From: Gammaproteobacteria bacterium | Lineage (GTDB): Bacteria; Pseudomonadota; Gammaproteobacteria; Ga0077536 | Direction of reading: 5' to 3' | Length of the DNA stretch: 64,000 nucleotides | Assembly (NCBI GenBank): GCA_016191285.1 | Contig: JACPPA010000016.1 | Coordinates: 248,001 to 312,000, forward strand | In this document: in pieces, positions 43,990-45,841 of the stretch | Numbering within the stretch: the first letter of the stretch is position 1 | Layout of the letters: every line of letters begins with the position of its first letter | Program-made: the position numbers and the translations under genes | Notes under the pieces: model-generated | The model's input: only the letters and a program-made list of their open reading frames with translations | Database searches by the model: none | Told to the model about the DNA's origin: nothing

Positions 43990-44064
43990 GCGTATGCCGC
44001 CGCGCGGGCATACCAGCACGCAGTCTTGATAACCAGACGAGCGAATCACAACAGGAGGACAGTC

Positions 44065-44439
44065 ATGACGGGAACCGAACAACGCAATCTTCAAACCGCC
44101 GAGCGATATGAAACGCTTTACAACACCGATATCGACCGTTTTGTACGCGAGGTCTACACGGCGGATTGCACGGTGCATTGCATGGGTGGGCCGACGATCC
44201 GCGGCAGTGAGGAATTTTTAAAGGTTGAGCGCGCAGTGCTCAACGCCGCGCCACAACGTCGGATGCGAGTCGTGCACCGACATGCCAGCGGCGATGCCGT
44301 GGTCGTCGAGGCGGTGGTGACCGATCCCGCCCGCGGCGCGGAATGGGAATTGCCGTTCGTCGCGATCTTGAAGTGCCGGGATGGCAAAATTGAAACCGAT
44401 CGCAGTTATGCCGATTGGTCGCGCTGGCCGGGTTTGTAG
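44065..44439 (+). CDS. SnoaL/NTF2-like small protein
   Basis: The 124-residue protein has the nuclear-transport-factor-2-like cone fold pattern: ERYETLYNTDIDRFVREVYT (about 13-32), then a strand-rich half ending with AILKCRDGKIETDRSYADWS. Members are polyketide cyclases or steroid isomerases, or bind small molecules. The ATG at 44065 has AGGAGG seven bases before it. It follows the second PuuA-like gene by 75 bases on the same strand. Function unknown. Confidence 0.75.
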   Translation: MTGTEQRNLQTAERYETLYNTDIDRFVREVYTADCTVHCMGGPTIRGSEEFLKVERAVLNAAPQRRMRVVHRHASGDAVVVEAVVTDPARGAEWELPFVAILKCRDGKIETDRSYADWSRWPGL

Positions 44440-44455
44440 CACGGCACCCAAGGAA

Positions 44456-44625
44456 ACTCTGAATAAGTCCCTTCCTGACTTTCGTCAGGACAGGCTCTGG
44501 ACTTTTCAGAGTACGGAAAACAAAAAGTGTGATTTTTGTTTTCCTTCATTTTCAACGGTCTTCGACCATCGAAAATGGCGGCACATCCGTGTGCCGCAGG
44601 AATCTCTGCCCATTGCAGAGATTCC
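44456..44625. repeat. Array of five contiguous hairpins
   Basis: Five stem-loops follow with gaps of two bases or less: A (44456-44512, an outer 14-bp stem with inner TCCTGAC/GTCAGGA), B (44515-44544, perfect 12-bp stem GGAAAACAAAAA), C (44547-44577), D (44578-44597, 8-bp stem with TCCG loop) and E (44599-44625, perfect 11-bp stem GGAATCTCTGC). The ends AAGGAAACTCTGA and TGCAGAGATTCCCT are near-inverted repeats, so the array could be a small mobile (MITE-like) unit or a bidirectional terminator between the convergent SnoaL and AguB genes. Confidence 0.75.
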
Positions 44626-45483
44626 CTAACGCGCAACTAATGCTTGGTACAACTCCGGCCGCCGATCGCGGAACACACCCCAGGCCGCGCGCTGCTCGCG
44701 TATTGCGTCGAGATCGAAGCTCGCGCTGATTATCATCTCTTCGGCACGACCCGCTTGGGCGACAATTTCGCCGGTCGGACCGGCGATGAACGATCCGCCG
44801 TAAAAGGTCAGCGAACACGAGACGCCGCGTTCGGTCCCGATCCGATTCGCGGCCACTAGCGGGGTTAAATTCGCGGCTGCGTGACCCTGCATCGTGCACT
44901 GCCAATGATCATGCGAATCGAGCGCTGGGTCATGGGGTTCGGAGCCGATGGCGGTTGGATACAGCAGCACCTCGGCCCCCATTAGCACCATCGCCCGCGC
45001 CGCTTCCGGGAACCATTGATCCCAGCAGATGCCGACTCCAATCGACGCCACCTTGGTGTGCCACACTTGAAAGCCGGTATCGCCGGGTGTGAAGTAATAT
45101 TTCTCGGCGTAACCAGGCCCTTGTGGAATGTGCGATTTGCGATAAATTCCGAGCGTCTTGCCGTCGGCATCGATGATTGCGACTGAATTAAAGTATGCGG
45201 TGCCGGCGACTTCGAAGAAGCTGATCGGCAACACCACTTCAAGTTCTGCCGCCAGCTCGGACATCAGGTGCAACAGCGGATTGGCCGCGGACGGCTTGGC
45301 CAGCGCGAAATGACTCGGCGCTTGATCCTTGCAAAAGTAGGGCGTTTCAAATAATTCTTGGAGCAAGATGATCTGCGCGCCTTGCGCATGGGCCGCGCGC
45401 ACTAGGCGTTCCGCGCGGGCGATGTTGGCGGCGATATCCCATTCACAGGCCATTTGGGTCGCCGCAATTTTGATTATCGGCAT
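44626..45483 (-). CDS. aguB: N-carbamoylputrescine amidase
   Basis: The 285-residue nitrilase-superfamily enzyme hydrolyses N-carbamoylputrescine to putrescine, carbon dioxide and ammonia. The catalytic triad is visible: Glu in ILLQELFETPYFC (about 41-53), Lys in YRKSHIPQG (near 116), and Cys in GVGICWDQWFPE (near 153). The protein has the AguB length and lacks a signal. With AguA it completes the agmatine to putrescine route. It ends at the edge of the hairpin array. Confidence 0.93.
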   Translation of the reverse strand: MPIIKIAATQMACEWDIAANIARAERLVRAAHAQGAQIILLQELFETPYFCKDQAPSHFALAKPSAANPLLHLMSELAAELEVVLPISFFEVAGTAYFNSVAIIDADGKTLGIYRKSHIPQGPGYAEKYYFTPGDTGFQVWHTKVASIGVGICWDQWFPEAARAMVLMGAEVLLYPTAIGSEPHDPALDSHDHWQCTMQGHAAANLTPLVAANRIGTERGVSCSLTFYGGSFIAGPTGEIVAQAGRAEEMIISASFDLDAIREQRAAWGVFRDRRPELYQALVAR

Positions 45484-45609
45484 CGGTGGCTCTCCGTTAG
45501 TTCAATCACCGGTTGCAACGCGCGCAATTCGCGCGCTGTCGTGGAATTTACTCTAAATAGCGAAGCGGAAATACTGACCGCTTCGAGCACCGCGCTGGCC
45601 ATCTCCACC

Positions 45610-45681
45610 GTCATTCCGGCGCAAGCCGGAATCCAGGATCCGCACTTGTTTGACTGGATCCCGGCCTTCGCCGGGATGACG
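45610..45681. repeat. Inverted repeat GTCATTCCGGCG...CGCCGGGATGAC
   Basis: GTCATTCCGGCGCAAGCCGG and the mirror CCGGCCTTCGCCGGGATGAC enclose a 72-base palindromic element. The 358-base gap between AguB and the next gene holds no other clear feature. Palindromes of this consensus are dispersed in many proteobacterial genomes. Confidence 0.7.
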
Positions 45682-45841
45682 TCCGTCACCGCTTTACACT
45701 TGTCGCTATGTATGCCCGTCTATTTATGCGCCACGAGGAACGGTCTCGGCCGCAAGCGATTTCGTCTTGCGGATTGACGCTCATGCACTAAGATACGGGT
45801 GCACTTATCTCAATCGTTTGGCTTATACCGAAGGGGACTCA

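Follow-up and report, generated by a model that had tools for sequence, protein, structure and literature searches.

A dispersed IS5-type MITE with five covarying hairpins and candidate CsrA/RsmA-binding loops in Gammaproteobacteria

Organization of the locus

The window is the 64,000-nucleotide stretch of contig JACPPA010000016.1 (positions 248,001 to 312,000) from the gammaproteobacterial assembly GCA_016191285.1 that was analyzed here, and all window coordinates are counted from its first letter. A plus-strand gene for a SnoaL-like protein (44026 to 44439; PF12680, E 8.2e-15; start codon uncertain) is followed on the minus strand by aguB, encoding N-carbamoylputrescine amidase (44626 to 45483; TIGR03381, E 2.2e-140, above the cut-off). 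The intergenic region between the convergent stops (approximately 44440 to 44632; 170 bp) holds five consecutive hairpins; the initial annotation had described them as five stem-loops, and they map as H1 to H5 within positions 44456 to 44625. The 174-bp element itself covers positions 44452 to 44625, or 44448 to 44629 with both flanking tetranucleotides, and over the latter span it is matched on the plus strand by the covariance model R1 with 157.1 bits (E 1e-44). The sole other R1 match in the window, with 30.3 bits, is on the opposite strand at the same place. The left tetranucleotide, CCAA (44448 to 44451), is identical in 3 of 4 positions to the right one, CTAA (44626 to 44629), which overlaps the TAG stop of the minus-strand gene, so that the window copy is flanked by an imperfect target duplication. 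The 3' end of aguB abuts the element, and read-through from this gene would therefore give minus-strand RNA.

The transposon has the termini GGAAACTCTG... and ...CAGAGATTCC, which are the outermost ends noted earlier as near inverted repeats. At 44452 to 44470 (plus strand) lies the left terminal inverted repeat, GGAAACTCTGAATAAGTCC, which has genome-wide counterparts matching the pattern GGAAMCTCTGAATAAGTCC, whereas the right one is contained in H5 (44599 to 44625), a hairpin with a perfect 11-bp stem. H1 (44456 to 44512) differs from that of other copies in having an additional nested hairpin, CCTGACTTTCGTCAGG (44474 to 44489), in place of its apex, so that the usual minus-strand GGA apical loop is not freely exposed. 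This hairpin belongs to an insertion, about 24 bases long, that is carried by the window copy alone among 41 aligned copies; the copy in locus L091 has an extra hairpin too. H2 (44515 to 44544; covarying helix 2) has a perfect 12-bp stem, and H3 (44547 to 44577; covarying helix 3) has a stem that is interrupted on the plus strand. H4 (44578 to 44597) reads GCGGCAC-ACGGAT-GTGCCGC on the minus strand, which combines an ANGGAN loop sequence with a G-C-rich stem and makes it a putative CsrA/RsmE-type site; in its minimum-energy fold the A is additionally paired with the final T, which reduces the loop to CGGA. This site (ACGGAT) is the only one that the window copy cleanly retains. The perfect stems of 12, 8, and 11 bp reported previously are those of H2, H4 (8 bp in the predicted fold), and H5.

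Folding of positions 44440 to 44640 gave, for each strand, an energy well outside the range expected by chance: -87.7 kcal/mol on the plus strand, compared to -47.3 (standard deviation, 4.1) for shuffled sequences, and -99.6 kcal/mol on the minus strand, compared to -54.9 (standard deviation, 4.5). None of 200 shuffles was as good in either case, and z was about -10 for each strand. Nearby, an open reading frame on the plus strand (window positions 45454 to 45777) contains VIPAQAGIQ...WIPAFAGMT in its translation, which we take to be the translation of another well-known dispersed palindromic repeat.

Copies, ends, and target duplications

A nucleotide search of the same genome (hereafter G000) returned at least 41 long matches, including the window copy, and at least 10 short pieces, with 40 of the 113 candidates scored. 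When up to 2 mismatches are allowed, the left end pattern GGAAMCTCTGAATAAGTCC has 84 occurrences in this genome, of which 66 are exact and 18 differ by 1 or 2 bases; the right end pattern, with up to 1 mismatch allowed, has 86, whereas the reversed control patterns of both ends have 0 matches there. These copy counts, from the genome search that the initial annotation had suggested, rule out a single-copy curiosity. Fifty-one left and right ends form pairs less than 3 kb apart, 28 of them 151 to 152 bp in length. Without the tetranucleotides, the 51 pairs fall into length clusters of 80 to 88 bp (n = 9), 138 to 158 bp (n = 32), 165 to 179 bp (n = 4), and 218 to 246 bp (n = 6), so that the family is short (80 to 246 bp, too short for a transposase gene) as well as multicopy. 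The remaining ends are unpaired at this stringency, and they include the window copy because its right loop differs from the pattern. The alignment of 41 copies resolves two subfamilies, A and B.

Exact 4-bp duplications are found just outside the terminal GGAA...TTCC in 23 of 31 intact copies in G000, and 22 of these 23 are CTAA, CTAG, TTAA, or TTAG (YTAR). In a single-contig relative (G159), 55 of 61 intact copies have exact duplications, 46 of them being one of the same four tetranucleotides. A 4-bp YTAR target duplication is characteristic of the IS5 subgroup of the IS5 family, and the duplications in both genomes conform to it. A 1,191-bp IS5-family element is present in G000 on contig C48 (locus L139, positions 993 to 2183), between CTAA and CTAA. 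Its ends are GGAAGCTCTGCAAAAG and GGAAGGTCTGAAAAG (also given as GGAAGCTCTGCAAAAGTC and GGAAGGTCTGAAAAGC), and the first 16 bases of its left end are those of the right end of MITE (miniature inverted-repeat transposable element) subfamily B. Two adjacent matches on C48, among ten PF01609 matches in the genome, belong to this element; its transposase is frameshifted and is covered in two frames by NF033581 with E values of 5.4e-62 (above the cut-off) and 8.7e-29 (below the curated cut-off). The short elements thus have terminal inverted repeats, target duplications, and ends in common with an autonomous-type element of the same genome, albeit one with a frameshifted transposase. We consider it close to certain that they represent a non-autonomous IS5-type MITE, one of the options raised in the initial annotation and the one that multiple copies with target duplications bear out. 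IS5-family elements and the MITEs share the NF033581/PF01609 transposase type, similar ends, the 4-bp duplication, and the same genome; in contrast, the five covarying hairpins of the MITE were not seen, by eye, beyond the ends of the IS5 copy.

The size and anatomy of the element rule out a REP sequence. REP/BIME and the enterobacterial RU/ERIC repeats (PMC3733652, PMC2759123) are likewise dispersed intergenic repeats, and REP sequences are palindromic; however, REP sequences are described in these sources as single palindromes of 20 to 40 bp, whereas the present element has about 150 bp, five hairpins, and target duplications of the DDE type.

Several unusual arrangements were seen. In locus L026 (about 2029 to 2213), two head-to-head inverted copies have one right hairpin in common, the second copy being shortened, and form a long palindrome. 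Loci L065 and L335 (genome G054) contain tandem runs of the element, repeated regularly about every 124 bp. Several insertions are adjoined by a REP-like repeat, GTGGGAGCCGCTTTAGCGGCGA, or its variants (in the flanks in L045, L050/L114, and L101), and the TTAG or CTAA of this repeat seems to have been used as an insertion target. Conversely, in L164 (773 to 984), a long REP-like hairpin (TGTGGGAGCGC...GGGCTCCCACA) is inserted in H2, a repeat nested in a repeat.

Half copies

Many copies in G000 end at a hairpin loop. Among the 51 copies recovered with both loop regions in the loci examined (a count that leaves out partial matches in L030, L041, L043, L073, L081, L094, and L120), 16 break off at the H1 loop and have no left arm, whereas 9 have no right arm and break off at the H5 loop or a few bases from it. 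Two of these 25 half copies (L020 and L031) are at contig ends, and the count excludes L041 and the window copy, both of which carry insertions. The half copies are found in loci L016 to L048 and L075 to L131, where long open frames often run into the junction. In L051 (about 2045 to 2166), a half copy lies inside an adenylate cyclase/AAA-like gene, with pieces resembling the same gene, by eye, on both sides. The pattern suggests either cleavage at hairpin loops by an SbcCD-like activity or an assembly effect. In G159, 73 copies were found and 70 were examined: 62 are full length (including L410, missed by the pattern), 3 are short, 5 are right-truncated (L359, L360, L377, L407, and L411), and none is left-truncated; in two of the right-truncated copies the break falls at the H4 loop. 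Since truncation near loops occurs in this single-contig genome, it is not solely an assembly effect of G000. The exact half-copy pattern of G000 goes beyond what G159 explains.

Distribution across genomes

The nucleotide search detected the element in at least 10 of 58 genomes, G000 included, with at most 14 candidates scored per genome. In a sample of 369 genomes spread evenly over the class, the covariance model R1, built from 17 copies, matched 76, in 56 of 272 genera; in the phylum, it matched 46 of 398 genomes, 43 of these 46 being outside the class; G000 is counted in both samples. The loop-masked model R2 (see below) matched 65 of the 369 class genomes. Carriers were named from a pattern scan (80 of 112 loci, among the matches listed) and confirmed by R1 at an E value of 0.01 or less. 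Among the matches listed, those with 59 to 152 bits are the Olavius algarvensis Gamma 3 endosymbiont, Thiotrichales and Sedimenticola metagenome-assembled genomes (MAGs), a Lysobacteraceae isolate, a Marinobacter MAG, and Thioalkalivibrio sp. ALJ21, and weaker ones (28 to 39 bits) are Halomonas cupida, H. beimenensis, and Microbulbifer. Halobium and Selenomonadaceae loci from the same scan had no R1 match and look like chance.

Among the open-access journal papers listed, covered as titles and abstract starts, neither such an element nor a CsrA-binding transposable element was found described. The sole entry that joined CsrA, miniature inverted-repeat, and transposable was, in the part of the record covered, the Rfam 12 database paper; the Thiomargarita MITEs, as presented in PMC4853749, are other elements.

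Covariation of the hairpin stems

The stem sequences vary from genome to genome, and pairing was evaluated in three alignments, A1 (17 copies), A3 (49 distinct rows), and A5 (31 R2 matches in 30 loci), the last two fitted to their own models. Double changes were found in 25 of 56 pairs in A1 (12.4 in shuffles), in 48 of 56 pairs in A3 (25.7 in shuffles; 95.3% of cells paired), and in 40 of 57 pairs in A5 (21.8 in shuffles; 96.0% paired). None of 500 shuffles, which retain the relatedness of the copies, reached the observed double-change count in any of the three, and slid partners gave 13 to 23 double-change pairs in A3 and A5. Compensatory changes thus exceed the shuffled control in the way expected of a structured RNA. 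There is very good support for conservation of the five-hairpin architecture, and the covariation check proposed in the initial annotation, which had also raised a structured noncoding RNA, bears out that option with respect to conserved single-strand structure. A MITE and a conserved single-strand structure are compatible readings of this element, not alternatives.

Conserved GGA loops

The GGA/TCC loops went unmentioned in the initial annotation. Because R1 knew the loops, and because 14 named A3 loci had been chosen by a TCC-in-H4 pattern, loop counts based on R1 (GGA in 50 of 50 for both H1 and H4) are circular and were excluded as evidence. A second model, R2, was therefore built with every loop masked with N in seven seed sequences, and the class sample was searched again; R2 fixes the loop lengths, the genomes searched are the same, and A5 consists of the top-scoring matches from 30 carriers out of 65. 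In A5, minus-strand GGA (in the loop plus two bases on either side) was found in H1 in 31 of 31 sequences and in H4 in 30 of 31, compared to 0 of 31 in H2, 3 of 31 in H3, and 1 of 31 in H5. H4 has an ANGGAN hexaloop in 29 of 31 sequences and a C-G closing pair in all 31; its A, G, G, and A are invariant or nearly so, whereas the two N positions vary, with entropies of 1.26 and 1.54 bits. In 32 lower-ranked or more distant copies (alignment A6; 32 of 45 rows, after 13 opposite-strand matches overlapping a better one were dropped), GGA is found 30 times in H4 and 25 times in H1, and in 70 copies from G159 the H1 loop is AGGAT in 64 and the H4 loop is AGGGAT in 54. ANGGA occurs on average 3.13 times per minus strand, compared to 0.83 in dinucleotide shuffles (highest, 1.29), and 1.0 times per plus strand, compared to 0.63. 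The H2 loop mostly has an R-Y-G-Y-G-R apex (TGTGA-like) across genomes in A3 and A5.

Length variants differ in their complement of loops. Short forms of about 86 bp (L084 and L086 among the nine in G000; L414 to L416 in G159) retain the H1, H4, and H5 positions and are without H2 and H3. By eye, H4 contains GGA in L084, L414, and L415, GGGGAA rather than ANGGAN in L086, and no GGA in L416. The minus strand of the long forms L030 and L043 carries a further GCCTCAGGATGAGGC, in an additional hairpin that contains CAGGATG, and L041 has CAGGATG twice in H1.

Template switching in DNA can change both arms of a hairpin together, imitating covariation, and it could be the source of part of the signal seen here. 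It is the basis of the leading alternative, in which an ordinary IS5-type MITE owes its perfect hairpins to quasipalindrome correction, without selection for an RNA function. This explanation agrees with the MITE anatomy (ends, lengths, and target duplications), but it leaves unexplained both why the five hairpins keep one order in many families and why GGA is retained in 31 of 31 and 30 of 31 sequences while the H3 and H5 loops vary and H2 keeps another motif. We regard it as unlikely.

The conserved strand might also be DNA, with extruded hairpins recognized by the transposition machinery or by a replication or repair protein and the TCC/GGA loops being the recognized feature. The terminal repeats do lie in H1 and H5, and 25 of the 51 G000 copies are cut at the H1 or H5 loop, as they would be by hairpin cleavage; further, GGA in a DNA hairpin loop has been reported to bind CsrA (PMC4005645). 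Mismatches bear on this point. On the plus strand, A-C mismatches outnumber G-T mismatches by 84 to 40 in A3, 47 to 24 in A5, and 61 to 38 in A6 (the alignments overlap and their cells are not independent), an excess that fits tolerated wobble in a minus-strand RNA rather than a DNA structure; in well-paired positions, the ratios of 46:34, 23:15, and 29:20 are not significant (p 0.22 to 0.26). Nor are IS5-family DDE transposases known to need such hairpins. On balance, recognition as DNA appears improbable, somewhat more so than quasipalindrome correction.

A bidirectional terminator or mRNA 3'-end stabilizer between convergent genes is very improbable: the window copy does sit between convergent genes and has terminator-like matches at H4 (minus strand) and H2 (plus strand), 2 being found for 0.5 expected, but the copies in G000 are in 8 convergent, 12 co-directional, and 2 divergent contexts and 8 locus edges (n = 30), those in G159 are in 8 convergent, 17 co-directional, and 8 divergent contexts and 4 locus edges (n = 37), and the GGA loops would be left unexplained.

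Comparison with CsrA/RsmA sites

The SELEX consensus for CsrA, RUACARGGAUGU, came mostly from hairpins with six-base loops in which AC and GU are paired, and CsrB has the motif CAGGA(U/A/C)G in hairpin loops (both as summarized in PMC7652899). The high-affinity consensus outlined in PMC4005645 is an ANGGAX hexaloop that sits immediately on top of a stem and leaves N and X unconstrained, and ACGGAU, the RNA equivalent of the window copy's H4 loop, is given there as the loop of two RsmE targets. According to PMC3856055, a spacing of at least 18 nt lets one CsrA dimer bridge two sites; the distance from H1 to H4 exceeds 18 nt. The commonest minus-strand forms of H4 (GGCAC-AGGGAT-GTGCC) and H1 (CC-AGGAT-GG) fit the CsrA/RsmE rules at the level of sequence, and the R2 alignment has GGA in hairpin loops and the ANGGAN hexaloop that these rules predict. 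Judged by this match, the conserved loops probably serve CsrA/RsmA.

The small regulatory RNAs CsrB/CsrC, RsmX/Y/Z, and McaS similarly present GGA in hairpin loops, the counterparts here being ANGGAN in H4 and, in its commonest form, CAGGAUG in H1. However, they are sRNA genes, whereas the present element is multicopy and mobile, has two loop sites in its main form, and, unlike the CsrB/Rsm sRNAs, has no known promoter and no Rfam match at the gathering score. In the window, no CsrB-clan match reached that score; RsmV scored 12.3 bits (gathering score, 100; E 0.31), and this match, at first sight suggestive, was not repeated in 10 relatives and is therefore discounted. With nothing in Rfam at the gathering score, the element is not filed as a member of a known RNA family of the CsrB/RsmZ type. 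In a simple promoter scan, the window copy had no match, and the one sigma-70-like match lay outside the element (44708 to 44736, plus strand).

Other results bear against the CsrA reading or leave it unaided. Among those given above, the lower retention of GGA in H1 in the A6 copies, the mixed H4 loops of the short forms, and the single clean site of the window copy count against it. In the phylum sample, csrA (PF02599) is found in 220 of 398 genomes, and it is present in 44 of the 46 element carriers and in 176 of the 352 others (p 2e-10), an association that follows clades; the two carriers without csrA, G609 and G660, are 74% and 69% complete. In the class sample, the association is not significant (68 of 76 carriers, 244 of 293 others; p 0.21). 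For five of the eight csrA-less class carriers (G127, G198, G217, G230, and G375), csrA is found in another sampled genome of the family, and G043 has no family mate among the matches listed. In family f123, both sampled members (G157 and G271) carry the element without a csrA match, one of them being just 55% complete. G000 has one csrA. No orientation bias was seen: the minus strand lies downstream of a gene in 9 copies in G000 and 11 in G159, and the plus strand does so in 5 and 12, respectively; a separate count in G159 (28 of 30 loci placed) gave plus 14 and minus 10. With a simple gene caller, no predicted gene extended across any of 67 intact copies, 12 of which are at locus edges. Moreover, hairpins from the SELEX experiment mostly had no more than 4 contiguous pairs (as summarized in PMC7652899), and the stable stems of the element may, by analogy, weaken CsrA binding.

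The closest bacterial MITEs that we could compare are the Coxiella burnetii elements QMITE1 and QMITE2, for which strong RNA structure is likewise predicted and of which some copies are expressed as small RNAs (PMC5896051). They differ from the present element in being described in one species, in a report whose main text does not mention CsrA, and QMITE2 further differs in its 7- to 9-bp duplications (as outlined in PMC10969869), compared to the 4-bp YTAR duplication here.

Proposed mechanism and implications

With these points weighed, a MITE whose minus-strand RNA binds CsrA/RsmA, as a set of dispersed sites or as a sponge, is our preferred reading, at somewhat better than even odds. An IS5-family transposase acting in trans would recognize ends of the type GGAA[A/C/G]CTCTG..., and the element would be inserted at 4-bp, mostly YTAR, sites, mostly between genes. 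Its single strand is constrained to five hairpins, because the stems stay paired through double changes. Minus-strand RNA would be produced by read-through of neighboring genes or from a separate promoter, H1 and H4 of this RNA would present GGA in loops, H4 as a C-G-closed ANGGAN hexaloop, and CsrA/RsmA dimers would bind these loops. Tens of copies per genome would then constitute dispersed CsrA sites or a diffuse CsrA sponge, with a possible benefit to the element or to the host.

More tentatively, and with a probability that we place short of even, this proteobacterial family of transposable elements may keep high-affinity CsrA sites through the evolution of its own hairpins, making it a mobile CsrA sponge or tagging module that is selected as RNA and moves as DNA, each new insertion altering the wiring of the Csr network. 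MITEs are commonly regarded as passive debris; here, a MITE found in about one-fifth of the sampled genomes of the class has covarying stems and two loops that match the CsrA rule, H4 position by position. If the proposal is true, it would explain the retention of structure, reveal a source of CsrA sites that can move, and connect transposition with a global post-transcriptional regulator, providing a directly testable case of a transposon that exploits or loads a regulatory protein of its host.
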